A stretch of DNA of 64,000 nucleotides from Burkholderiales bacterium. GTDB taxonomy: Bacteria; Pseudomonadota; Gammaproteobacteria; Burkholderiales; Burkholderiaceae_E. Shown here in pieces: positions 13,980 to 31,842 of this stretch. Location of the stretch: the NCBI GenBank assembly GCA_027487815.1, contig JAIYCW010000034.1:1-64000 (forward strand), given 5' to 3'. The translations under genes and the position numbers were made by a program. The notes beneath the pieces are model-generated. The model did not search any database. It saw nothing but the letters and a program-made list of their open reading frames with translations, and was not told the DNA's origin. Positions within the stretch are counted from its first letter, which is position 1; each line of letters begins with the position of its first letter.

Positions 13980-14600
13980 TCAGTCCAGCGGCTTAACGAA
14001 AGCCAGCACCATGCCCAAAGCATCATCGGCCAAGGCCTGCATGGACCTTTGCTCAGCCACCGGATAACCGAGCACGGCTGAAAGGGTGTGCTGATTGGAA
14101 ACCACGAAGTAGCCAAGCGAAGCAATCAAAACATAAAGCCGAACCGCATCCAGTTCGGCACGCAGCTTGCCCGCATGTTGGCCGCGCGCCACCACTGCCT
14201 TTAGAAGTGCAACAATTGGTGCGACGAGTTCGGGGAGCTGCTCGGAGGTGCGCAAGGTTTGTGCCTGGCGCAGATTCTCGGTGTTGAGCAAGCTCACAAA
14301 CTCGGGATGCTGCGCGTAATAGCGCCACACGAACCGACTGAATGCAGCCACGGCAGCCAAGGGCTCCAAACCATCAAGCGCCAGCGCCTGCTCGGCATCA
14401 CGCAAGTCACCATAGACTTTTTCAAGCGCTGCGCGATAGAGCAACTCTTTTGAATCGAAGTAGTAATACACCATCCGTTCGCTCGATTGAGCGGCCTGCG
14501 CGATACGATCTCCCCGAGCTCCCGCTAAACCATACTGAGCAAACTCACTGATCGCCGCCTCGAGAATGCGCTTGCGGGTGGCCTGCGGATCGCGCTTCAT
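13980..14600 (-). CDS. TetR/AcrR family regulator, likely local regulator of the nicotinate operon
   Basis: A 206-residue TetR-type repressor: the N-terminal helix-turn-helix spans about residues 10-55 (TRKRILEAAISEFAQYGLAG ... SERMVYYYFDSKELLY), followed by an all-helical ligand-binding domain. The ATG overlaps the enamidase stop by one base (TAATG), making it the last gene of the long catabolic operon. The obvious target is the repeated TGAAGTA half-site at 27962-27990 in front of the operon, with a pathway intermediate as inducer; both are inferences. Confidence 0.88.
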   Translation of the reverse strand: MKRDPQATRKRILEAAISEFAQYGLAGARGDRIAQAAQSSERMVYYYFDSKELLYRAALEKVYGDLRDAEQALALDGLEPLAAVAAFSRFVWRYYAQHPEFVSLLNTENLRQAQTLRTSEQLPELVAPIVALLKAVVARGQHAGKLRAELDAVRLYVLIASLGYFVVSNQHTLSAVLGYPVAEQRSMQALADDALGMVLAFVKPLD

Positions 14601-15808
14601 TATGCGTGGGCGAGGATCACCGGTACTTCACTGGCAGGTGGCGTGTTGCGACTGCGCTGGCAGCGTACGATGCCATCAATAATCACCATTCCAACCCCGG
14701 GAATATCACCCAGTTCCACACTTTCCAGCAAGGTTGTGCCAGCCGAATGTTGCGCGCGATCCATCAGCACAAAATCAGCGGGGCGCCCCACCTCAATCAG
14801 GCCTTGAGGCAGACCCCGCATGCGGGCAATATTGCCCGTGGCAAATCCGAATACGATCTCGGCCGGAATATCAGCCATGGATGAAATCAGCGCTATCAGG
14901 CGCAGCATTCCAAGTGGCTGCACTCCACTTCCCGCAGGCGAATCTGTACCAAGGATCACTCGGTGCGGGCACTTCAATTCCATCGCATGGCGAGCCGTAA
15001 GAATGCCAATGCGCTCATTGCCGTTGTGCACAATTTCGATGGCCCGGGAGCTTTTCTCGCACAGGGTACAGACCTGTTTGTACGGCAGCGAGGTATGCCC
15101 GCCATTGATATGCCCAATAACATCGGCATCCGCCTCAAGCACCACATCTGCATCAATCAAGCCTGAACCGGGAATCGAAGGACCACCGGTATGGATCGTG
15201 CTTTGAATCCCGTATTTGCGTGCCCACCCCACCATTTGCGCCGCCTGATTCCCGGCCTTTACGCTGCCCAAGCCCACCTCACCCAGCAGCTTGACCCCAT
15301 TGCGCGCAAGCTCGGCAAAATCTTCCTCAACCATGCCTTGTTCAATCACCGGGGCTCCTGCCAACACCTTGACTCCACCCCCCACCCCGCTGGCCCGCAT
15401 GCCTTCAAACGCACGCTGGGCAGTGACGGCAAAAGCCTTTAGCCCGACAATATCCTTCGGGCGTCCGGGAAGATGCACTTCGCCTGCAGAAATCATGGTG
15501 GTGACCCCACCGTGCATGCATGAGTCAATCCAGCCGATTTGATTTTGCCGGGGCGTCCAATCGCCAAACACCGGATGGGTATGCGAGTCGATCAATCCCG
15601 GAGCCAGGCAAGTGCCGCGTGCATCGATCAGCGTTGTGGGTTCGCTGACGTCCACGTCTGCCAACCGACCTATCGCAGTGATTACACCATCATGGATAAC
15701 TAGCGTGTCGGCCTGCAGTATCGGCTGATCGATATCGCCTGAAAGCATCAACCCGATATTGCGGATAACGACCTTGCCCGAACTTGCTGCGGCTGCTTGT
15801 AGCGCCAT
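14600..15808 (-). CDS. ena: Enamidase (1,4,5,6-tetrahydro-6-oxonicotinate amidohydrolase)
   Basis: A 402-residue cytosolic amidohydrolase that I recognise as a homologue of Eubacterium barkeri enamidase, a Fe/Zn enzyme that opens 1,4,5,6-tetrahydro-6-oxonicotinate to 2-formylglutarate and ammonia. Metal-binding signatures are DSHTHPVFGD (first His pair), GEVGLGSVK (bridging region), HTGG and HINGGHTS (further His), and GTDSPAGSG (catalytic Asp). Family-specific text includes HGGVTTMISAGEVHLPGRPKD and the tail SRNTPPA, which I recall from the E. barkeri protein. GGAG lies seven bases before the ATG. It follows livF by 29 bases. A generic imidazolonepropionase-type hydrolase is the alternative. 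Confidence 0.88.
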   Translation of the reverse strand: MALQAAAASSGKVVIRNIGLMLSGDIDQPILQADTLVIHDGVITAIGRLADVDVSEPTTLIDARGTCLAPGLIDSHTHPVFGDWTPRQNQIGWIDSCMHGGVTTMISAGEVHLPGRPKDIVGLKAFAVTAQRAFEGMRASGVGGGVKVLAGAPVIEQGMVEEDFAELARNGVKLLGEVGLGSVKAGNQAAQMVGWARKYGIQSTIHTGGPSIPGSGLIDADVVLEADADVIGHINGGHTSLPYKQVCTLCEKSSRAIEIVHNGNERIGILTARHAMELKCPHRVILGTDSPAGSGVQPLGMLRLIALISSMADIPAEIVFGFATGNIARMRGLPQGLIEVGRPADFVLMDRAQHSAGTTLLESVELGDIPGVGMVIIDGIVRCQRSRNTPPASEVPVILAHA

Positions 15809-20542: not shown

Positions 20543-21127
20543 CTAGCGCAAGCCATCTTGACCCACGACCTCATGAACCTGCAATCCCCCGACGCGAGGC
20601 AAGGGCCGTCCGGTAGCGCTGACCGCTACAGCCACCAAAATTTCGTTACTGCGGGGTGCATCACCTATTCGCGCCTCAATCGCATCGAAATGGCTGCGCA
20701 CAAAAGCAGCATCCTTATGCCCCAGCGGCACATCGATTGCGGTGCCCAGTGTGCCGACTTTTTTGGCTGATGGCACCAAAGCAGCACCTTTTTCCACTGC
20801 GACCCTCAAAGGTGCACCAAGTTTCGGATGCAGGATCGCGGCCGCATGCTCCAACTCACCGGCCTCACCAACAATTGCCGCCTTGCCATAGCCCTGCGCT
20901 TGCGCCGGTTCGATGCCCAAGGCTTCAACACACTTAGCACCGAGCAATCCGCCAAGCTCTTCACCGATAGCGATTAGCTCGTCAAGCGTTGCACTAAAGC
21001 GTCCGGCATAAGGGTTGGCGATCACGGCCATAGCCAAGGCGCGCCTTGCTGGGGGATCAACAACCTGACCCATCTCCTGCATCACTTCATCCAGGACCAC
21101 CACCAGTTTTCTGATCTGCGCTTGCAT
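20543..21127 (-). CDS. DUF1185 (amino acid synthesis, AA_synth) family protein, copy A
   Basis: A 194-residue member of Pfam PF06684, a family with solved structures but no established reaction. The family blocks are visible: VVLDEVMQEMGQ near the start, AVIANPYAGRF, GYGKAAIVGEAGELEHAAAILHPKLG, GALVPSAKKVGTLGTAIDVPLGHK and a C-terminal VRSHFDAIEARIG. It shares all of these with the neighbouring copy B but is more compact, so they are diverged paralogues, not a recent duplication. AAGG lies eight bases before the ATG. Position between the reductase genes and the transporter suggests a step after or beside ring reduction; the reaction is unknown. Confidence 0.88.
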   Translation of the reverse strand: MQAQIRKLVVVLDEVMQEMGQVVDPPARRALAMAVIANPYAGRFSATLDELIAIGEELGGLLGAKCVEALGIEPAQAQGYGKAAIVGEAGELEHAAAILHPKLGAPLRVAVEKGAALVPSAKKVGTLGTAIDVPLGHKDAAFVRSHFDAIEARIGDAPRSNEILVAVAVSATGRPLPRVGGLQVHEVVGQDGLR

Positions 21128-21173: not shown

Positions 21174-21815
21174 CTAGCGTTGACCATCCATCCGACTGAT
21201 TTCGCTTGCTGCCATGCCACCTGCCCGCGCATGAACCCGCGCCCCGCAGGCCATCACCAGAATCAGCACCATTTCATCAGCACGCGGCGCACCCGCCACC
21301 TTGACTTCAAACGCATCAAAATGACTGCGCACATAGCTTGCATTCAAATGAGTTAAAGGCACATCCAAACTCGCACCGGGTCCGCCAACCTTTTTGGTAG
21401 AGGGCACAATCGCCAGGGCATTGCCGCCCTTTTCAAGACCGCGTTGCCCGATAGCCTCAGTGGGCAGCGAAGGGTTGCGCTTCCAGCCCAATACCTCCCG
21501 CATGCTGTAGCCACCAGGCGCGTGCCATAAAGCTCCGTGTTCGAGCTCACCCGAAGCACCGATGATTGCGCCTTTGCCATAGGCTTCAATCTGTTCGAGA
21601 TCGCCGCCAAGGGCTGTGAGTAGCTGCTGCGCAAGCTTTATGCCTAGGGGCTCAAGCGCTTTCATCAACGGCAGGATATCGGGCTCGTAATACCCCGCAT
21701 ATGGATTGCGAATCACCGCTGCAATCGCACCGCGCTTGGCGGGCTTGGCGGGAGGTGGGCCAAACTCATGATGGATGAGTTCGACTTGGGTGAACACGCG
21801 GCGCAGTTCGATCAT
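21174..21815 (-). CDS. DUF1185 (amino acid synthesis, AA_synth) family protein, copy B
   Basis: A 213-residue PF06684 protein. Conserved blocks: AAVIRNPYAGYYEPD, EAYGKGAIIGASGELEHGALWHAPGG, LAIVPSTKKVGGPGASLDVPLTHL and YVRSHFDAFEVKVAG. The ATG at 21815 sits two bases after the UPF0280 stop (TGAGCATG), which I prefer to a TTG at 21848 that would extend into the upstream gene. Together with copy A it may form a heteromer or two sequential activities; no catalytic residue is established for the family, so none is claimed. Confidence 0.87.
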   Translation of the reverse strand: MIELRRVFTQVELIHHEFGPPPAKPAKRGAIAAVIRNPYAGYYEPDILPLMKALEPLGIKLAQQLLTALGGDLEQIEAYGKGAIIGASGELEHGALWHAPGGYSMREVLGWKRNPSLPTEAIGQRGLEKGGNALAIVPSTKKVGGPGASLDVPLTHLNASYVRSHFDAFEVKVAGAPRADEMVLILVMACGARVHARAGGMAASEISRMDGQR

Positions 21816-21817
21816 GC

Positions 21818-22732
21818 TCAAGACAATACCATCCCTTGATGTTGACAACTGAGGGCTGCACCCGCGATCAATCCATCCGATTTCAACCGCTGTGCAAATT
21901 GATGCCCGCGCTCAAGCGCCTGCCGCACCAACTGAGGGGCTAGCTTGCCCACTTCGACCGTGACGAGGCGCTCACCAAGATCGCTGTCATCACGCACCTG
22001 ATCGGCAGGTTTGCGCTTGATCGCCGGATCATTGATATCGACTTCATTCGCAATCATCGTGGCTGCAGCATCGGCCTGGCTTGCTGTTGCAGCCAGCACG
22101 GTGACACTATCGGCCACGCCAAGTGACAGGCTGCGACCACCCCAGCCCGAGGTGGCGATGCCGCAAATATTGCTTGCCGCATCGATTCGCAATACGCCGT
22201 CGATCGCAGGCGATTCAATCCGCTGCACCATGCCCACCGTCATCTGCTGCCTCGAGGCAAGATAAAGCGCAATATCCCCGCCATTATTGATCGCAGCCCG
22301 CTGAATCCCGGGGCGCTTAAAACATTCAATCAGGGTTTGGCCAACTGCACCGGCTACCGCAGCCATCGGAGTGATGAACTTTTCATAGCGCTGATGGAAC
22401 GGCAACACCGCCGAATACATCAAGCTCGCTGTGTAGCCCTTTGCTGTGTAGCCCTTCGCCTTGTAGCCCTTCACCCTTTGGCTCATTGCTGGGCTGATGT
22501 TTTGTGCCGGTTGACGCAGCAGCCTGAGCTCGCTCACCAGCTCGCTTAGCAAGGGCGCGAACCTTGTCCATGCATCATTCACTGCAGATCGCACAATCTC
22601 ATCAGAACCTTCGGCCCAGATGATCAAATCAATTGGGCCATGCTGGAAGTGCCAGCGCTGCGCGTCGAGCTGACGAGCCATTGGACCCCCTGGCCCCACC
22701 GACCCTTCTGGCCCCTCCCCCCGCCACGTCAT
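21818..22732 (-). CDS. UPF0280 family protein (ApbE superfamily), putative flavinyltransferase-like
   Basis: A 304-residue protein of COG2122/UPF0280, placed in the ApbE superfamily, whose founding members attach FMN covalently to target proteins. The segment AAINNGGDIALYL (about residues 150-160) resembles the ApbE motif NxGGDI; ATSGWGGRSLSLG and the threonine/alanine-rich region before it also fit. The start overlaps the hnr stop by four bases (ATGA), giving a glycine/proline-rich N-terminus. Near residues 88-102 there is a threefold 15-base repeat (see repeat feature) encoding a KGYTA-like lysine/tyrosine-rich insert. Direct link to the upstream reductase is inferred; classical ApbE activity is not shown for this family. 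Confidence 0.82.
   Translation of the reverse strand: MTWRGEGPEGSVGPGGPMARQLDAQRWHFQHGPIDLIIWAEGSDEIVRSAVNDAWTRFAPLLSELVSELRLLRQPAQNISPAMSQRVKGYKAKGYTAKGYTASLMYSAVLPFHQRYEKFITPMAAVAGAVGQTLIECFKRPGIQRAAINNGGDIALYLASRQQMTVGMVQRIESPAIDGVLRIDAASNICGIATSGWGGRSLSLGVADSVTVLAATASQADAAATMIANEVDINDPAIKRKPADQVRDDSDLGERLVTVEVGKLAPQLVRQALERGHQFAQRLKSDGLIAGAALSCQHQGMVLS
22432..22476 (-). repeat. Three tandem 15-base units inside the UPF0280 gene
   Basis: Units at 22432-22446, 22447-22461 and 22462-22476 share the core TGTAGCCCTT on the plus strand and differ in the last five bases. In the gene they encode in-frame KGY-containing pentapeptides, so copy-number change would not break the frame. Confidence 0.85.
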
Positions 22733-24216
22733 TCTGATTCTCCGGCCGGGGATGCCAGCGGCACCAATGGCCAGGGCTCACCGGCAGGCCAGGCAATCAC
22801 CCGATGTTCGTGGTTCGCCATCACATCTTCAACCGACTGCACACGCGAGACATGCCCTCCGAGCGCTGCATAATCCGCAAGGGGCATCGTGAATTCAATT
22901 GGCGCCACAATCGCGGGCGTGGGTACCGAACCAAATGAGCCTGCAGGCATGCGAGCCACATCAACCATCACGGTGATGCCACCGCCCGGCCACACATAAG
23001 CGGGCGCGCCGCCACAAGTCACCCGGGTCAGGCTTTGCTTGATCGAACGGGTCAAGCGCACGGGATTGTCTGTGACGCCTGCACGCAAGCTGCCTCCCGC
23101 TCCACCAAGAAACAGCACCGTACAGATCGCAGGTTCGCAATTCTCACCAATCCGCTCCACCACCTGCGCCACCGGCTGCGGCATCGGTGCAGCTTGCGGC
23201 GTCAATGCCTCATCCAGCACAAAATACTGCGCATGCTCGCCCGTGGTGGAGACCATCAGTATCCGCATGCCAGGCTGCGCATAGCGTGGATCGAATCGCT
23301 CAATAATCGATAAGGGGTCCTGAATATCCGTGCCGCCCCAACCGGTGCCGGGATTGGCCACCTGGAAGTAACGCCCAGGCGTCGACTTCTTGCCTCGGAT
23401 TTTCAGACCCGAGGGTGGCATATCCAGACAGCGCCCTGCCTGATGCTCGCTAAGCACACCGGTGATGTGATCATCAACCACCACCACCTCGTCCACATGC
23501 CCCAGCCACTGCTGCGCGAAAATACCTATCGTGGCCGACCCGCAACCCACCCGCATCCGTTGTTCGGGTACACCATTCACAATCGGCGCTGCACCCGATT
23601 GCACTATCACCGTGGCCCCGCCTTCAATCACCAACTCAGCTGCGCCACCGTTACCCAATCGCTCCATCAACTCGCAGGTGACGCGACCCTCTTTTTTTGA
23701 CCCGCCGGTGAGGTGATGCACACCGCCAATCGACAGAAATTGGGAACCATATTCAATGGTCGTGACATGCCCCACCGCCTCATCCTGATATCTCACGGTG
23801 GCCTGCTCAGGACCGAGATAGCGATCCGTATCGATCTTCACTTTAAAGCTGCAATAGCTGAAGATCCCCTCGGTGACGACTGTCACCATATCCATGCCCT
23901 CATGGCGTGAACCTACGATAAACGGTGCGGGCTTGTAATCCGGATAGGTGGTGCCGCTGCCCACTCCGGATACGAATATTGGCGAGGGGTTGATGATTGA
24001 TCCATCCCACTGCGCGGGGTCGCTGGCTACAAGTGCCCTGGGCTCGCGGGCCATCAGCACGACCGGGTCCATCCGCTTGAGCACCCCCTCCACATTGCCC
24101 CAGCGGTCGCAAGCCCCGAGACGACCCGGACTGATCTGGCACAACACCGGGCAGGCATCGCACTGGATCTTGTCTTGCGCCATGTTTGCAGGCTGCGGGC
24201 TTGGGGTCAGGCTCAT
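22729..24216 (-). CDS. hnr: 6-Hydroxynicotinate reductase
   Basis: A 495-residue protein that I recognise as the Hnr family: ferredoxin-dependent reduction of 6-hydroxynicotinate to 1,4,5,6-tetrahydro-6-oxonicotinate. An N-terminal cysteine cluster (Cys19, Cys22, Cys26, Cys36; CDACPVLC ... GACDRWGN) probably binds an iron-sulfur cluster. Glycine-rich stretches SGVGSGTTYPDYKPAPF, RVGCGSATIGIF and LGGAGGSLRAGV follow. The E. barkeri enzyme has covalent flavin, one [2Fe-2S] and two [4Fe-4S]; here I see ligands for only one obvious cluster, so separate ferredoxin may be needed. ATGA overlaps on both sides couple it to the Mo-hydroxylase and UPF0280 genes. The name rests on memory of the family plus context. 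Confidence 0.82.
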   Translation of the reverse strand: MSLTPSPQPANMAQDKIQCDACPVLCQISPGRLGACDRWGNVEGVLKRMDPVVLMAREPRALVASDPAQWDGSIINPSPIFVSGVGSGTTYPDYKPAPFIVGSRHEGMDMVTVVTEGIFSYCSFKVKIDTDRYLGPEQATVRYQDEAVGHVTTIEYGSQFLSIGGVHHLTGGSKKEGRVTCELMERLGNGGAAELVIEGGATVIVQSGAAPIVNGVPEQRMRVGCGSATIGIFAQQWLGHVDEVVVVDDHITGVLSEHQAGRCLDMPPSGLKIRGKKSTPGRYFQVANPGTGWGGTDIQDPLSIIERFDPRYAQPGMRILMVSTTGEHAQYFVLDEALTPQAAPMPQPVAQVVERIGENCEPAICTVLFLGGAGGSLRAGVTDNPVRLTRSIKQSLTRVTCGGAPAYVWPGGGITVMVDVARMPAGSFGSVPTPAIVAPIEFTMPLADYAALGGHVSRVQSVEDVMANHEHRVIAWPAGEPWPLVPLASPAGESE

Positions 24217-27083
24217 GGGTTCAACGCCGCCAATAATCGAGTAGGAGTAACGGGCACCTCATTCATGCGCACACCGCAGGCTGCATGGATCGCATTGAGA
24301 ATCGCCGGAGCGGTGGCGCACAACGCGGGTTCACCCACTCCTTTTGCACCCCATGGGCCGAGCGGCTCGGGATCTTCAATCAAATGGATCGTGATTGCAG
24401 GCATGTCACCTACGGTAGGGATCAGGTAGTCGTGCAGATTATCGGTGCGCCCGCTGATGTATTCCTCCATCAAGGCCAAGCCCAGACCCTGAGCAATGCC
24501 GCCCTGGATTTGCCCTTCGACCTGGGCTGGATTGATCGCGCGTCCAACATCATGCGCGGCATGAATATTCAGCACCCGCACGAGGCCAAGCGAGCAATCC
24601 ACTTCCACATGGGCAAACTGTGCAGCAAAACCATAAGTGGCATAGGGCACACCTTGCCCGTCAGCATCCAGGGCAATCGTGGGTGGGTTAAAGGTGCCTG
24701 AGCCCATCAGCACATGACCTTGCGCATCCACTGGCAACTCTGCAAGCTTGATCCAGGCAGTCTCGACATTGGAAGCGTTCAAGCCGATCTCACCTTGATT
24801 GAGTTTCGACACATCGATGTTTACTTGATCAATCGCAGGTAACTCATTCAGGCCAGCCCAGGCCAACCGCGCCAATTGGCGCTTTAAATCGAGCCCGGCG
24901 AAACGCGCTGCGTTGCCTGACACGAAGGTTTGGCGCGAAGCCGAGCTTTTTCCGGCGTCCTCAGTCAAAGCGGTGTCGGCGTGCACTTGTTGGAGCAGGT
25001 GCATCGGCACCCCCAAGGCGTCGGCGGCCATCTGCATCATGATGGTGTAAGTGCCCTGGCCAATATCTATCGCACCGTTGTAAAGCACGAGCCCACCATT
25101 GGGCTTCAAGCCCAAGGTCATGGTTGAGGGATTGGCAATTACCGTGTTGCCAATGCCGTACCACATGCAGGCGATACCCACACCTTGCTTGAGCACAGCC
25201 GATTGAGCATTGAAGCTTGCACACTGCACCAACGCCTGACCCCAAGCAGGGCGCAAAGCATCCAGACAGGCTTGCAAACCCACACTGGCTTCCAGGCGCT
25301 GCCCGGTGGGTGTGAGATCACCTGCTCGCAACGCCCGCTGATGACGAAACTCCAGGGGGTCTTGCCCACAAGCCTGGGCCGCTTCATCGATCAAACGCTC
25401 ATTAAGCAAGGTGGACTGCGGCACACCAAAGCCCCGAAACGCACCAGCCACCGCATTGTTGGTCAACACCGCGCGAGTCAGTGCTCGCACATGCTGCACA
25501 CGATAGGGGCCGCTGGCATGAATTGGTACACGGTTGGCTACTGTGGGGCCCCAACTGGAATACGCGCCTGTGTTGAAGTCGCCAGAAAAATCATAGGCGA
25601 GCAATTCGCCTTGCGCATCAACAGCCAGACTCGCTTGCATGATCGCAGGATGCCGCTTGGTGCTGGACACCATCGATTCAGGCCGGTCATAAATCAGCAT
25701 GGCAGGTCGGCCAAACTTGCGGGCCGCTGCAACAATCAAGGGCTGTACCGACATATCAAGTTTGCCGCCAAACCCGCCCCCCACGGCCGATGGGATGATG
25801 CGCACCTGCCCGGGCTGCAACCCAAACATGTTCGCCAATTCATCGCGATCCATATAGGGCGTTTGGGTAGTGACGAACACGGTGGCCACACATGCATCAG
25901 CACCTTGCTTTTCGGCCTTGCAATCCCACTGCGCCCAGCCCGCCTCCGGCTCAATGTATGCATGCTCAACATGCTGGGTGGACATCATCGCCTCGAAGTG
26001 CCCAAAGCCTTGCTCGAGGGATTGTGCGAGAGCGCTATCGACATCGCCGCGCACCACTCGCCCGCGGCACAACACGTTATCGGGCCAGCGCTCCTGCACC
26101 GGATCCGCGGCGTTTAAGGCGTCAACAATTTCGCTTCGCACCATAAGCTGGTGGAAGCTCACCGGCGGAGGATCGACCTTGAAGTCCAAAGCACTAATGG
26201 CTAAGGGCTCGCCCACAACAACAATCACCGCCTCGCCGCGAAACCGAGCAACCCTTTCGGCGAGTGCAGGCTGATCACGAAGATCTGGGAAGATCGCAAA
26301 GCGGTTGATCTTGATATCGAGTGGTGTAATCACACCCGCGAGGCCCGGATGCTTATCAATCCAGCCTTGAAGGTCTCCGATCTCGATGCGCGCATGCGCG
26401 AGGGGAGAACGAAATACCTTGAGCATGAGCGTATCGGGCGGCATTTCATCGGCACCATAACGCGCGCGACCGGTCACCTTGTCGTGAGCATCGAGCCTCG
26501 CCACTGAAGCACCGACTGCCTGACCAGCCAACACTGCGGAGCTTTCGATGGCCTGGGTTACCGAACTCACAGCGGTTCTTAAGGTCGGATTCGATTGCGC
26601 CGCGAGCAACACCGCCTCAACAATTTTGGTATATCCGGTGCAACGGCACAGTACGCCGCCCAGTCCATCAAGCACTTCGGCATGGGTCGGTTGCGGATGC
26701 TTCGACAAGGTATCGTAGGCCGCCATCAGCATCCCGGGCGTGCAGATGCCACATTGAGCCGCCCCGGCCGAGATAAAAGCTTGCTGCAGCCGCATGCCAA
26801 GCGGAGTGCTTGCGAGCCCTTCCACCGTGAGTATCTCGGCATCGCGCACTTGCCCAAGCGGCACCAGACAAGCGCAGGCCTGGTCTCCGGAGATCATGAC
26901 AGTACACGCCCCGCAGTCTCCTGAGTGACAGCCAATTTTCGTGCCTGTGAGCCCTGCGCCTCCCTGATTTTCGGGGGCTCTCAATGCATCAGACAAGCGC
27001 GCTTGAGGGGTCATGGCAAAGCGCATTGGTTGCGCATTCACCATGCAGGATGTGGCTTGATTAACTGTGGCCGTTGAGCTCAT
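24213..27083 (-). CDS. Nicotinate hydroxylase-type molybdoenzyme, fused [2Fe-2S] and molybdopterin subunit
   Basis: A 956-residue xanthine-oxidase-family protein in which the two-cluster iron-sulfur subunit is fused to the molybdopterin subunit. Plant-type [2Fe-2S] ligands are Cys52, 57, 60 and 72; the second cluster uses Cys111, 114, 146 and 148. The molybdenum domain starts near residue 190 (ARLDAHDKVTGRARYGAD), with GGGFGGKLD, GAFRGFGVPQ and the catalytic glutamate in GAKGVGEPALCATAP. Expected reaction: hydroxylation of nicotinate at C6. The ATG at 27083 overlaps the FAD-subunit stop (ATGA); an upstream open frame is inside that gene. Substrate is inferred from the hnr and ena neighbours; another purine- or pyridine-type ring is possible. 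Confidence 0.88.
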   Translation of the reverse strand: MSSTATVNQATSCMVNAQPMRFAMTPQARLSDALRAPENQGGAGLTGTKIGCHSGDCGACTVMISGDQACACLVPLGQVRDAEILTVEGLASTPLGMRLQQAFISAGAAQCGICTPGMLMAAYDTLSKHPQPTHAEVLDGLGGVLCRCTGYTKIVEAVLLAAQSNPTLRTAVSSVTQAIESSAVLAGQAVGASVARLDAHDKVTGRARYGADEMPPDTLMLKVFRSPLAHARIEIGDLQGWIDKHPGLAGVITPLDIKINRFAIFPDLRDQPALAERVARFRGEAVIVVVGEPLAISALDFKVDPPPVSFHQLMVRSEIVDALNAADPVQERWPDNVLCRGRVVRGDVDSALAQSLEQGFGHFEAMMSTQHVEHAYIEPEAGWAQWDCKAEKQGADACVATVFVTTQTPYMDRDELANMFGLQPGQVRIIPSAVGGGFGGKLDMSVQPLIVAAARKFGRPAMLIYDRPESMVSSTKRHPAIMQASLAVDAQGELLAYDFSGDFNTGAYSSWGPTVANRVPIHASGPYRVQHVRALTRAVLTNNAVAGAFRGFGVPQSTLLNERLIDEAAQACGQDPLEFRHQRALRAGDLTPTGQRLEASVGLQACLDALRPAWGQALVQCASFNAQSAVLKQGVGIACMWYGIGNTVIANPSTMTLGLKPNGGLVLYNGAIDIGQGTYTIMMQMAADALGVPMHLLQQVHADTALTEDAGKSSASRQTFVSGNAARFAGLDLKRQLARLAWAGLNELPAIDQVNIDVSKLNQGEIGLNASNVETAWIKLAELPVDAQGHVLMGSGTFNPPTIALDADGQGVPYATYGFAAQFAHVEVDCSLGLVRVLNIHAAHDVGRAINPAQVEGQIQGGIAQGLGLALMEEYISGRTDNLHDYLIPTVGDMPAITIHLIEDPEPLGPWGAKGVGEPALCATAPAILNAIHAACGVRMNEVPVTPTRLLAALNP

Positions 27084-27943
27084 GGCAACAAGCTCACACA
27101 GGCTTGTGCAATCAACACCTTCGCTGCAGCCAGGCGGTAGGCAGCACTGGCACGAACATCGTCGATAGGGCTCAACCCTGACATCGATGCCGGATCGGCC
27201 CAAGCGCGCTCGATCTGCGTCACCAACTGCCCCGCTGGACAGCCGATTAATCGCTTTTCCAATGCTGCCATGCGTTGCGCCACTGGCGAACATGCCCCCA
27301 CCGCAATTCTGAGCCCCGCAATCCGGGATTGCTGGTCCCACTGCATCGCGACCGCAACCATGACAAACGAAATCACCAGATACCGGCGGTTTCCAAGCTT
27401 GCGAAACACGGTTCGCGTGGTTGTCTGGCGTGGCACAACAATGGAATGCAACAGCTCATCGGCAGCCAAGGCGGTGCGCCTTGGCCCGAGGAGAAAATCA
27501 CCCAAGGGCAAACGGCGAGTAGCGCTCGCACTGTGGAGCTCGACTTCCGCTTCCAATGCGAGCAATGGCGGCACACCATCTGCTGCCGGCGAGGCATTAC
27601 ATAGATTGCCTCCGAGGGTGCCGCGATGCTGCACTTGCCAACCGCCAACATCGCGTGCCGCCTGCGCAAGGCAAGTCAGTTCGCCGGCCAGATCAGCGGC
27701 CTGCAACCTCGCCCAGCTCACTCCTGCGCCCAGGCGAATCGACTCCCTACCGATATCAATTTGCTGCAGAGCAGCAATGGCGCTGATATCCAGCATCGGC
27801 ACTTCAACCGGTCGCCCCACCCGAGCCGCATACCAATCGGTACCGCCAGCGACCACATGAACTCCACTGTGGTTTTGCAGCACGCGCAGGCCCTCCGAAA
27901 GCGCTTCGGGGCGCCAATACTCGGCTTGAGGTAGTGCAAGCAT
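27080..27943 (-). CDS. Molybdenum hydroxylase FAD-binding subunit (CoxM/XdhB-like)
   Basis: A 287-residue FAD subunit that carries electrons from the iron-sulfur clusters of the hydroxylase to its acceptor. The FAD-binding motifs VVAGGTDWYA (about residues 30-39) and HRGTLGGNLCNASPAAD (about 106-122) are intact, as is the C-terminal CO-dehydrogenase-flavoprotein domain. First gene of the catabolic operon; the ATG has GGAA upstream. The 100 bases before it are shared with the divergent fdxA gene and hold the presumed operator. Confidence 0.93.
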   Translation of the reverse strand: MLALPQAEYWRPEALSEGLRVLQNHSGVHVVAGGTDWYAARVGRPVEVPMLDISAIAALQQIDIGRESIRLGAGVSWARLQAADLAGELTCLAQAARDVGGWQVQHRGTLGGNLCNASPAADGVPPLLALEAEVELHSASATRRLPLGDFLLGPRRTALAADELLHSIVVPRQTTTRTVFRKLGNRRYLVISFVMVAVAMQWDQQSRIAGLRIAVGACSPVAQRMAALEKRLIGCPAGQLVTQIERAWADPASMSGLSPIDDVRASAAYRLAAAKVLIAQACVSLLP

Positions 27944-28043: not shown

Positions 28044-28370
28044 ATGACCCACGTTGTCACCGAATCCTGTATCAAATGCAAATACACCGACTGCGTGGAT
28101 GTATGCCCGGTCGATTGCTTTCGGGAAGGCCCCAATATGCTGGTCATCGATCCTGATGAGTGCATCGACTGCGCAGTCTGTATTCCCGAATGCCCGGTAG
28201 AAGCCATTAAGGCGGAGGAAGATGTGCCCGCCGACCAGCTTGACTTCATCAAGCTCAATGTCGAGTTGGCACGCGGCTGGCCCAGCATCACCCGGACCAA
28301 GCCCGCCCTGAGCGAGGCCGAAGAATTCAAGTCGGTGACCAACAAGCGGCATTTGATCGAGCGCGGGTAA
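28044..28370 (+). CDS. fdxA: Seven-iron ferredoxin FdxA ([3Fe-4S][4Fe-4S])
   Basis: A 108-residue soluble electron carrier. Ligand pattern [18 protein letters not shown] and [16 protein letters not shown] is that of proteobacterial 7Fe ferredoxins, with the usual C-terminal extension ([18 protein letters not shown]). It is divergent from the nicotinate operon and four bases upstream of a large flavoprotein. Because 6-hydroxynicotinate reductase uses reduced ferredoxin, FdxA is the obvious candidate donor; but fdxA genes are common housekeeping genes in this group, so the link is inferred from position. Confidence 0.94.
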
Positions 28371-28374
28371 GCGG

Positions 28375-31300
28375 GTGGCTGCTCAATCGCAGGGAGCAGC
28401 ACTTCAACTGGCATTCGGACTGCAGTTCGAAGACCTGTATCGACCTGCGGGGCTGCGGCAACTTCATGCGCTTTTTGGCGACTGGCTCCACGAACATGAT
28501 GCAGCCAGTGCCGCTTTGGCCGCCCAGGAGATCGATCCTAGCCAAATCCGCTTGAATGACAAGGCTCTTGCGGAGCTGCTGATCGCCATCGGCAAACAGG
28601 TGCATGGCTTCGTGGTGCATCTATTTGCGATTGGTGCTGCGGATAGTCAAGCACTGGCGGCGCATGCTTCGCTCGATGCCTTGTTTCGGGTGAAGTGGAA
28701 ATTCGTCAAACGCCAGGCCCTGCTCGATGCCGATGAAGAAGCCCTTAAAATTTTCGATGCGCCTAATGCTCGGCAAAAAATTGAGCACTGGCTCGGGCAG
28801 CCCTTTGATGAACTTGCTTTTGCCAATGCCATTTTAAAGTGGCAAGAAGCAGGAGACGAAACTCGGCTGGCCCTGGCCAGGCAGTATTGCGCGTGGGCAG
28901 TGCTAAGCCCTGCGGGGCAAAGAGTTCACGGACACGAGGTGCTGTTTCGCCATCCTCAAGGCCAGGATCCCGCGCATCTAATGCATCACGCGCAAAGCCA
29001 CGATGACACTGGCGTAACGATTCACAGCATCTCGGTAGATCATATCCGGCGCCGACATGGCTTCAAGCTCACCGATCCTGGTGCGAGCCTGGCGCATGCA
29101 CTTGATCAAACCCACTACTGCATCCTGTGTCATGCGCAGGGCAAGGACAGTTGCTCCAAGGGCATGATCGACAAAGCTTCCGGCGGATTCAAAAGTAACG
29201 CGCTTGGCACCAAACTCGCTGGCTGCCCTTTGGAGCAGCGGATTTCGGAGTTTCATAGCCTCAAGCGCTTGGGCTTGTCGATTGGGGCGCTGGCGATGAT
29301 CACCCTTGACAATCCCATGCTGGCGGGCACCGGGCATCGTATTTGTAACGACTGCATGAAGGGGTGTATTTACCAAAAGCAAACCCCGGTCGATATTCCG
29401 CAAGCCGAAACCCGCACGCTCAAGGATGTGCTGGCCCTGCCCTGGGGTTTTGAGATTTATGGCCTGCTCACCCGATGGAATCCATTGCGCCTGCATGCCC
29501 CGGTGCCGCTTGAGCCCACCGGGCACAAAGTGCTGGTCGCGGGTATGGGCCCCGCAGGCTTCACGCTGGCCCATCATTTGCTCAATGCCGGCATGACGGT
29601 GGTGGGTATTGATGGCCTGAAGATCGAACCGCTTGCTAGTGAGCTCAACGGGGTCGCGAAGGACGGGACCAGGCAAGCCTTCGTGCCGATCTTTGACAGC
29701 TCTGAATTGCGCGAAGAACTGGATGAGCGTGCGCAGGCGGGCTTCGGTGGCGTTGCGGAATACGGCATCACCGTGCGCTGGGATAAAAATTTTCTCAAAA
29801 TCATTCGCTTGCTGCTTGAAAGACGTGAGCATTTTCAGTTGATGGGTGGCGTGCGACTGGGTGGCACGCTAACCGTGGATCAGGCTTTTGCGATGGGCTT
29901 TGACCATGTAGCTTTAGCCTTGGGCGCAGGCAAGCCGACGATGCTGGATGTTCCTGGCGGCCTGGCGCGAGGGGTTCGTGCAGCCAGCGATTTCCTGATG
30001 GCGCTTCAGCTCAGTGCAACCGCACGCCCTGAAGGTATAGCCAATCTTCAGGTGCGCCTGCCAGTGGTGGTGATTGGCGGTGGACTGACCGCGATTGATA
30101 CCGCTACCGAAGCCTTGGCGTTTTATCCCTTGCAAGTGGAGCGCTATTTGCAACGCCATGAAGTGCTGGTTGCGCAGATCGGTGAGACACAGACACTGGC
30201 CAAACTTTCCTCCCAAGAACTTGAGGTTGCGCAGGAATTTTTGGCTCATGCCCGGGCGCTGCGCGCTGAACGACAGCTCGCTCAACTTGAACACCGCGTC
30301 TCGCGCGAATTGGAATTGATCCAAAGCTGGGGCGGTGTACGTATTGCGTATCGCAAGCGACTGATCGACAGCCCGGCCTACACCCTCAATCATGAAGAGG
30401 TCGAGAAGGCACTGGAAGAAGGCATCACGATTGGTGAGGAACTGACTCCGCTTGAGATTCATACTGAGTCAAACAGCGTTTGCGCCATCACGCTCAAGAC
30501 CAAAGCAGGGGCCTCAGTTCAGTGGCCTTGTCATACCGTGCTCGTAGCCGCAGGGACAACACCCAATACCGTGTTGGCCCGCGAGTTTCCCGAAAGCTTC
30601 GCGGTAGACGGCAAATACTTTCAAGCCATTGACCTCGACGGCCGACCAGTAAGCCCCGAGCGTAATGTAAAGACCGCTCATCCGCAGGTCATGATTCAGC
30701 GGCGCGACGATGGCCGGATGGTGTCCTTCTTCGGGGACTTGCATCCGAGCTATGCGGGCAATGTGGTCAAGGCCATGGCATCTGCCAAACGTGGCGCACC
30801 GCAAGTGCTTGAAGCAACGCTGCGTCAATCTCCCGCATCGGCGTTAACTGGCGAGGCGTTTTTTGCTCAACTCGCAAATAAACTTCATGCGCGAGTGCAT
30901 GCTGTCTATCGCCTGACCCCAACGATTGTGGAAGTCGTCGTGCACGCGCCCCTGGCTGCCGAAAACTTTGCGCCTGGCCAGTTTTATCGGCTGCAAAATT
31001 TCGATGCCTTGGCGCATGATGTCGACAAGCCTTTGCCCACGCGCCACGCGATGGAGGGCCTCGCGCTCACTGGTGCATGGGTGGATCGAGCGCGGGGTTT
31101 GGTCTCGACCATTGTTCTCGAAATGGGCGGATCGAGTGATTTGTGTATTGACCTCAAGCCCGGCGAACCGATTGTGCTGATGGGGCCCACCGGGACACCT
31201 ACCGAGATTGTGCAGGGGCAAACCGTTGGGCTGGTCGGCGGTGGCCTGGGCAACGCAGTATTGTTTTCAATCGGTGCAGCCTTGCGCGCTGCGGGCTGCA

Positions 31301-31842
31301 AAGTGCTCTACTTCGCAGGTTACAAAAAACTCATTGATCGCTACAAAATTGATGAGATCGAAGCGGCGGCCGATACCGTGGTGTGGTGCAGCGATGAGGC
31401 CCCAGGCTTCGAGCCGCGCCGCCCGCAAGATGCGCGCTTCGTGGGCAATATCATTGATGCAATTGCCTGGTGGCATGGGCAGCAACAGGGCTTGCGCACC
31501 GAAGCGGTCGACCGCTGGATTGCGATCGGATCGGATCGAATGATGGCGGCGTTTGCCGCTGCGCGTCACGGGGTCTTGAAGCCGATGTTGAAATCGGGCC
31601 ATGTCGGCTTGGGCTCGATCAACTCGCCCATGCAATGCATGCTCAAGGAAGTGTGCGGCCAGTGCTTGCAGCGCCATGTTGATCCGGCCACTGGGCAATC
31701 ACGCTATGTCTTTTCCTGCTTTGAGCAAGACCAGAATCTCGATCAGGTGGATTTCGCCAATCTTCATCAACGTCTCACCCAGAACACTGTGCTGGAAAAA
31801 CAAACTTCGCACTGGCTCGCGCTGAGTCGGGCTTCGGCCTGA
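28375..31842 (+). CDS. GltD-PyrK (Nfn-like) fusion flavoprotein, putative NAD(P)H:ferredoxin oxidoreductase
   Basis: A 1155-residue flavoprotein. Residues 1-~240 are a helical region of no known match to me. Around 245-335 cysteine clusters (HYCILCHAQGKDSC, GCPLEQ, RICNDCMKGC) look like [4Fe-4S] ligands as in GltD/NfnB. From ~385 a two-dinucleotide-fold oxidoreductase follows (VLVAGMGPAGFTLAHH; VVVIGGGLTAIDTA). From ~835 a PyrK/ferredoxin-NADP-reductase-like domain with VGLVGGGLGNAVLF and C-terminal 2Fe-2S ligands (CMLKEVCGQC ... FSCF). The order equals NfnB-NfnA in one chain, an arrangement able to link NAD(P)H and ferredoxin. GTG start four bases after fdxA. Bifurcation is not claimed from sequence. 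Confidence 0.82.
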   Translation: MAAQSQGAALQLAFGLQFEDLYRPAGLRQLHALFGDWLHEHDAASAALAAQEIDPSQIRLNDKALAELLIAIGKQVHGFVVHLFAIGAADSQALAAHASLDALFRVKWKFVKRQALLDADEEALKIFDAPNARQKIEHWLGQPFDELAFANAILKWQEAGDETRLALARQYCAWAVLSPAGQRVHGHEVLFRHPQGQDPAHLMHHAQSHDDTGVTIHSISVDHIRRRHGFKLTDPGASLAHALDQTHYCILCHAQGKDSCSKGMIDKASGGFKSNALGTKLAGCPLEQRISEFHSLKRLGLSIGALAMITLDNPMLAGTGHRICNDCMKGCIYQKQTPVDIPQAETRTLKDVLALPWGFEIYGLLTRWNPLRLHAPVPLEPTGHKVLVAGMGPAGFTLAHHLLNAGMTVVGIDGLKIEPLASELNGVAKDGTRQAFVPIFDSSELREELDERAQAGFGGVAEYGITVRWDKNFLKIIRLLLERREHFQLMGGVRLGGTLTVDQAFAMGFDHVALALGAGKPTMLDVPGGLARGVRAASDFLMALQLSATARPEGIANLQVRLPVVVIGGGLTAIDTATEALAFYPLQVERYLQRHEVLVAQIGETQTLAKLSSQELEVAQEFLAHARALRAERQLAQLEHRVSRELELIQSWGGVRIAYRKRLIDSPAYTLNHEEVEKALEEGITIGEELTPLEIHTESNSVCAITLKTKAGASVQWPCHTVLVAAGTTPNTVLAREFPESFAVDGKYFQAIDLDGRPVSPERNVKTAHPQVMIQRRDDGRMVSFFGDLHPSYAGNVVKAMASAKRGAPQVLEATLRQSPASALTGEAFFAQLANKLHARVHAVYRLTPTIVEVVVHAPLAAENFAPGQFYRLQNFDALAHDVDKPLPTRHAMEGLALTGAWVDRARGLVSTIVLEMGGSSDLCIDLKPGEPIVLMGPTGTPTEIVQGQTVGLVGGGLGNAVLFSIGAALRAAGCKVLYFAGYKKLIDRYKIDEIEAAADTVVWCSDEAPGFEPRRPQDARFVGNIIDAIAWWHGQQQGLRTEAVDRWIAIGSDRMMAAFAAARHGVLKPMLKSGHVGLGSINSPMQCMLKEVCGQCLQRHVDPATGQSRYVFSCFEQDQNLDQVDFANLHQRLTQNTVLEKQTSHWLALSRASA

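Follow-up and report, generated by a model that had tools for sequence, protein, structure and literature searches.

The gene that directly follows hnr in this stretch of DNA encodes a protein of the UPF0280 family, and the question raised by the locus is what such a protein does beside Hnr, a homologue of 6-hydroxynicotinate reductase. The pair is found in a Burkholderiales bacterium, on a contig (JAIYCW010000034.1) whose first 64,000 nucleotides were analysed as a whole and are referred to here as the window. Hnr of E. barkeri, the one whose biochemistry is known, reportedly carries a covalent flavin (PNAS 2006), and the first-pass annotation of the window had proposed the UPF0280 protein as a candidate flavinyltransferase of the reductase.

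The nicotinate cluster and the hnr-UPF0280 pair

The minus-strand genes run in the order hydroxylase subunits, hnr, UPF0280, two AA_synth genes, an ABC transporter and an enamidase homologue (Table 1). Both open reading frames of the pair were found where the first-pass annotation had placed them, and the ATGA overlap of the hnr stop with the UPF0280 start was confirmed and recurs in many relatives. Hnr itself matches no Pfam or NCBIfam family above cut-off; it was classed by its homology to annotated Hnr proteins and by its nicotinate gene context, both of which were found. The pathway assignment is considered sound because of the enamidase match and the hydroxylase matches in the PDB (which include chains A, B and D of the nicotinate dehydrogenase 3hrd beside other molybdenum hydroxylases), because many of the 26 plasmid records that match hnr by tblastn are annotated as 6-hydroxynicotinate reductase, and because a nicotinate cluster of this sort is known from Azorhizobium and Bradyrhizobiaceae, where the proteobacterial Hnr homologue of strain SG-6C has 42% identity to the E. 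barkeri enzyme (PMC3511419). Window Hnr and the E. barkeri protein are the same annotated enzyme.

Table 1. Features of the locus, with positions counted from the first nucleotide of the window
Feature	Position	Strand	Remarks
Enamidase homologue	14600..15808	-	PDB 2vun ENAMIDASE, E 9.4e-105
AA_synth (PF06684) paralogue 2	20543..21127	-	
AA_synth (PF06684) paralogue 1	21174..21848	-	
UPF0280 / COG2122 / PRK04334 protein, 304 aa	21818..22732	-	ApbE-fold partner of Hnr; NF003322, 2o34 relative, ApbE fold
UPF0280 D221-A-A-A-T225	22058..22072	-	Aligns with ApbE Asp285 and the next Thr
UPF0280 T194-S195-G..G-R-S-x-S-x-G205	22118..22153	-	S195 corresponds to ApbE Ser241 (V. cholerae)
UPF0280 Arg200 codon	22133-22135	-	
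UPF0280 NNGGDI, residues 149-154	22271..22288	-	Counterpart of ApbE GGE/GGD
UPF0280 TPMAAVAGA	22346..22372	-	At the place of ApbE D-x-x-x-I-A-K-G, Asp and Lys lost; pairing upstream of the aligned block extrapolated
UPF0280 tandem repeat insertion	22427-22471	-	
ATGA stop/start overlap of hnr and UPF0280, 4 bases	22729..22732	-	
hnr, 6-hydroxynicotinate reductase homologue, 495 aa	22729..24216	-	tblastn relatives with that annotation
Hnr T90-Y-P-D-Y-K-P-A-P98 (TYPDYKPAP) codons	23923..23949	-	Near-fully-invariant run
Hnr S87-G88-T89-T90 codons	23947..23958	-	
Hnr CX2CX3CX9C (C19, C22, C26, C36), near N-terminus	24109..24162	-	Four Cys invariant in homologues
Nicotinate-dehydrogenase-like subunit	24213..27083	-	[2Fe-2S] and molybdopterin domains fused in one chain; start approximate
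FAD subunit of molybdenum hydroxylase	27080..27943	-	
Ferredoxin FdxA	28044..28370	+	
1155-aa protein after FdxA	28375-31842	+	

Several neighbours of the pair deserve mention in their own right. The AA_synth paralogues have no assigned function, and their solved relatives 2qtp and 3byq are likewise uncharacterised. FdxA may possibly serve as an electron carrier, and the 1155-aa protein encoded after it, in which a glutamate-synthase-small-subunit-like part is joined to a ferredoxin-reductase-like part, is a candidate electron supply for Hnr that is present in just 5 of the 52 long relatives of the locus.

The association of UPF0280 with Hnr is strict. Of 398 Pseudomonadota genomes, 32 carry Hnr, and the very same 32 carry UPF0280 above cut-off. 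The chance of identical sets is about 10^-47 when calculated naively and 10^-24 by genus, figures that are too strong given that the cluster is inherited by descent and also transferred. In total, UPF0280 was found in 48 of 49 Hnr genomes, the sole exception being a 78%-complete assembly in which hnr runs into the contig end. UPF0280 is present at 116 of the 119 Hnr loci having at least 1 kb downstream, in all 26 plasmid records bearing hnr, and at all 52 long Hnr loci, where it lies less than 200 bases from hnr in 51 and is the only tested neighbour never missing (at least one AA_synth gene in 49, enamidase in 45). Linkage is not required for the two genes to be retained together, as they occupy separate contigs in two genomes (G029 and G208) and lie 13.6 kb apart in a third (G118).

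One plasmid, pBPS33-1 of Hydrogenophaga, has UPF0280 with no match to hnr, and an apparent C-terminal remnant of hnr precedes the gene, beside IS1071. The plasmid carries, as several near-identical copies in tandem, an IS1071-flanked block with genes for UPF0280, a PDR/VanB oxidoreductase and a Rieske protein.

A canonical ApbE could in principle modify Hnr, but it was found above cut-off in just 26 of the 49 Hnr genomes and is dismissed as a general answer because the other 23 have none above it. The window's own genome (G000, 95.6% complete) is one in which no canonical ApbE was found, and the weak ApbE matches at E<0.001 in G002 and G364 are UPF0280 itself. Within Burkholderiales, ApbE is rarer with Hnr (7/19 vs 125/181, Fisher p 0.009, uncorrected for descent). 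Given the identical sets of 32 genomes, and 48 of 49 for UPF0280 against 26 of 49 for canonical ApbE, UPF0280 is very probably a dedicated partner of Hnr, and probably its maturase. No paper linking UPF0280 or COG2122 to Hnr was found in the open-access literature.

It is highly improbable that UPF0280 merely travels with the cluster, catalysing or supporting some other reaction of nicotinate breakdown without acting on Hnr. The AA_synth and enamidase genes are also frequent near hnr, and the Hydrogenophaga plasmid retains UPF0280 with a mere remnant of the reductase gene; however, UPF0280 alone among the neighbours tested accompanies every long locus, nearly always within the short distance given above, and is kept where it is unlinked. 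Elsewhere COG2122 shares a three-gene operon with another ferredoxin-linked enzyme.

Family, fold and active site of UPF0280

The window protein belongs to NCBIfam NF003322/PRK04334 (350.4 bits, cut-off 290), a family that we take to be COG2122 from family knowledge and from the match to 2o34 of D. vulgaris, and falls outside Pfam ApbE PF02424 (13.3 bits, gathering score 25.6). In hhalign, 36 aligned UPF0280 members compared with 13 canonical ApbE proteins gave E 5.6e-8 and a probability of 94.7. The AlphaFold model (pLDDT 91, pTM 0.90) has as its top PDB match 2o34 (D. vulgaris DVU1097, Z 19.9), followed at Z 13.7-16.1 by Ftp, ApbE and FmnB, all flavin transferases; the stretch matched to these comprises about 210 residues, beginning at residue 23 and reaching the C-terminus, and the first unrelated fold appears at Z 7.7. 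As the flavin-transferase match covers both halves of the protein, the predicted fold is the two-domain T-fold of the ApbE-like superfamily, and the placement in that superfamily made by the first-pass annotation is borne out by both profile and fold. Judged from these comparisons, UPF0280 is an ApbE relative, though not a canonical ApbE. Neither UPF0280 nor Hnr has a predicted membrane or signal segment, and UPF0280 is predicted to be cytoplasmic. The window protein also contains an insertion, KGYKAKGYTAKGYTA, a five-residue tandem repeat that is missing in the other aligned homologues.

Conservation of the active site is partial. ApbE of V. cholerae has Ser241, His257 and Asp285 as its conserved catalytic residues (PMC12052999), and two of the three are retained in UPF0280 as the invariant S195 and D221. 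Together with T225 and the N-G-G-D loop, these are invariant or near-invariant among more than 120 Hnr-linked UPF0280 homologues, and the ApbE-like NNGGDI noticed earlier is indeed present, as INNGGDI at residues 148-154. The ApbE segment H-x-x-D-P-x-T-G, which holds the general base His257, has been deleted, the profile alignment showing a gap in its place; the Lys of the AKG motif is lost as well. At the start of the block that follows the deleted segment, Arg200 is invariant in the G-R-S-x-S-x-G of the Hnr-linked branch. In comparing the protein to ApbE, Ftp and FmnB, the full-length T-fold, the GGD/GGE loop, the Ser of T-S-G, the Asp and Thr of A-D-A-x-x-T and, it is suspected, a redox-enzyme target are common to all, whereas UPF0280 differs in lacking the His segment and the AKG Lys, in its sub-threshold Pfam score and in its predicted cytoplasmic location.

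An ApbE fold need not imply covalent transfer, and UPF0280 could act as a flavin chaperone, as an FAD pyrophosphatase supplying FMN, or as a permanent subunit of the Hnr complex. Altered chemistry of this kind would fit the loss of the catalytic His segment, and the ApbE-fold relatives include Ftp of Treponema, an FAD pyrophosphatase/FMN transferase (PMC4767422). The invariance of S195, D221 and T225 nevertheless suggests that catalysis has been kept. As the E. barkeri reductase is also said to hold its flavin covalently, a non-covalent role is considered unlikely.

Hnr as the putative flavin acceptor

Seven Cys are invariant in Hnr, including the four of CX2CX3CX9C, which is probably a [4Fe-4S] site. 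The E. barkeri enzyme is said to contain one [2Fe-2S] and two [4Fe-4S] clusters, and seven invariant Cys are not obviously enough for three. Searches of the PDB for a known fold of Hnr gave nothing at E <0.001 and nothing at Z >=5, a result that is not proof of a new fold.

With regard to the acceptor residue, the first-pass annotation had pointed to the Ser-Gly-Thr-Thr stretch at residues 87-90 while holding other threonines to be equally possible. The stretch is present, and across 124 Hnr homologues T90 is invariant and position 89 is always Thr or Ser; positions 87 and 88 vary, Gly being found at 88 in 54%. S87 was discarded as a flavin site, being Ser in just 30% of these sequences. About 17 Ser/Thr positions are invariant in Hnr homologues, too many for the acceptor to be singled out. 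Within the stretch, conservation makes T90 the best guess, though nothing beyond a guess; the TYPDYKPAP run that it opens lies in a lower-confidence loop of the Hnr model (pLDDT 84.5). Unlike the targets of ApbE, Hnr lacks the acceptor motif D-x-x-[ST]-G-A-[ST], which was found in none of the 124 sequences.

Covalent transfer of flavin to Hnr by UPF0280 is the best mechanism available and a reasonably probable one, a reading that rests on the fold, the partnership with Hnr and the covalent flavin reportedly present in E. barkeri. UPF0280 would then be a cytoplasmic enzyme devoted to maturing Hnr and built, like the ApbE flavin transferases, on a two-domain T-fold. Most likely it would bind FAD with Mg2+, using D221, T225 and the NGGD loop, and pass the FMN phosphate on to one of the invariant Ser or Thr residues in Hnr, for which T90 would be the best single choice. 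The covalent flavin may in turn take electrons from the Fe-S centre(s) of Hnr and pass them to 6-hydroxynicotinate. Of the flavinyltransferase proposal in the first-pass annotation, the kinship to ApbE and the partnership with Hnr have held, the latter being obligatory even in genomes without a canonical ApbE and where the genes are unlinked; the absence of the catalytic His segment, the AKG Lys and the canonical acceptor motif counts against the transfer itself. In Klebsiella, a cytoplasmic ApbE-type enzyme is required by one soluble reductase, fumarate reductase (PMC12052999). UPF0280 would resemble it as a cytoplasmic ApbE-type protein that serves one soluble reductase, but the Klebsiella enzyme is canonical, and its target is among those that define the canonical acceptor motif.

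A second partner family in homocysteine synthesis

COG2122 is also required, with HcyBio and a NIL-ferredoxin protein, for homocysteine synthesis in Desulfovibrio (PMC5764234), a context that the first-pass annotation had missed. A sulfur-trafficking role has been proposed for COG2122, namely for MA1715 of Methanosarcina (PMC5764234, PMC12068725), and a Cys cluster has been reported at the C-terminus of methanogen members (PMC9431491). Carried over to this locus, UPF0280 would be a sulfur-trafficking factor or an Fe-S/persulfide maturation factor for the Fe-S clusters of Hnr, a role with which the seven invariant Cys of the reductase would agree. This is quite improbable: no alignment column is a conserved Cys throughout 127 Hnr-linked UPF0280 homologues, five of which lack Cys entirely, so a Cys relay or cluster is excluded as a general function of the Hnr-linked branch, and the fold is that of the flavin transferases.

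The homocysteine-type proteins (MA1715, DvMF_0044 and 2o34 of D. vulgaris Hildenborough) are of the same family as the window protein, which has 31% identity over the core to P0004 and a profile match to 2o34 at E 3.9e-24, and they share with it an operon partner that is a ferredoxin-linked enzyme. They differ in that their partners are HcyBio and NIL-ferredoxin instead of Hnr, and in the G[R/H]S sequence, where P0004 and 2o34 have His in the place of Arg200; the Hnr-linked branch further differs in its lack of conserved Cys and in an extra C-terminal D-D-S-D-L-G region.

Both arrangements are seen in SAR324. In one genome (G626, L133 / L134), HcyBio, NIL-ferredoxin and COG2122 are three overlapping genes of one operon, and this HcyBio is the only one among 52 SAR324 genomes. 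The other examinable COG2122 genes of the group adjoin hnr, lie about 2.4 kb off or sit at a contig edge, with the gene unlinked in G201. HcyBio (PF01837) was found neither in the window's own genome nor in any of 299 Pseudomonadota genomes, and none was found on plasmids or in viral contigs. Hnr and HcyBio (COG1900) have colinear motifs that look alike by eye; BLASTP and hhalign gave no signal with the one HcyBio sequence available and an Hnr Neff of 2, and in a decoy test against Hnr, of low power for the same single sequence, HcyBio ranked 40/169 locally and 65/169 globally.

The occurrence of COG2122 beside Hnr and beside HcyBio therefore points to one maturase-like family with two partner families, both made up of reductive enzymes that have either an Fe-S domain or an Fe-S partner. 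A tentative extension, possible though doubtful, is that COG2122/UPF0280 forms a second, cytoplasmic branch of flavinyltransferases for ferredoxin-linked reductases, its target being Hnr in organisms that degrade nicotinate and, in methanogens and sulfate reducers, the L-aspartate semialdehyde sulfurtransferase (COG1900). If this is true, the homocysteine enzyme would have an unrecognised covalent flavin, which would be the source of the two electrons of its reaction.

COG2122, a family of unsettled function, is now strictly tied in genomes to a partner protein, and the E. barkeri relative of this partner is reportedly a covalent flavoprotein, which makes a direct test possible. If flavin transfer by UPF0280 is true, protein flavinylation would be known with an altered active site and with an acceptor sequence that is new, which would be useful for flavin-tagging. 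The finding also bears on why anaerobes need COG2122 for homocysteine synthesis, and if Hnr and the homocysteine partner were both flavinylated, an old puzzle would be solved.
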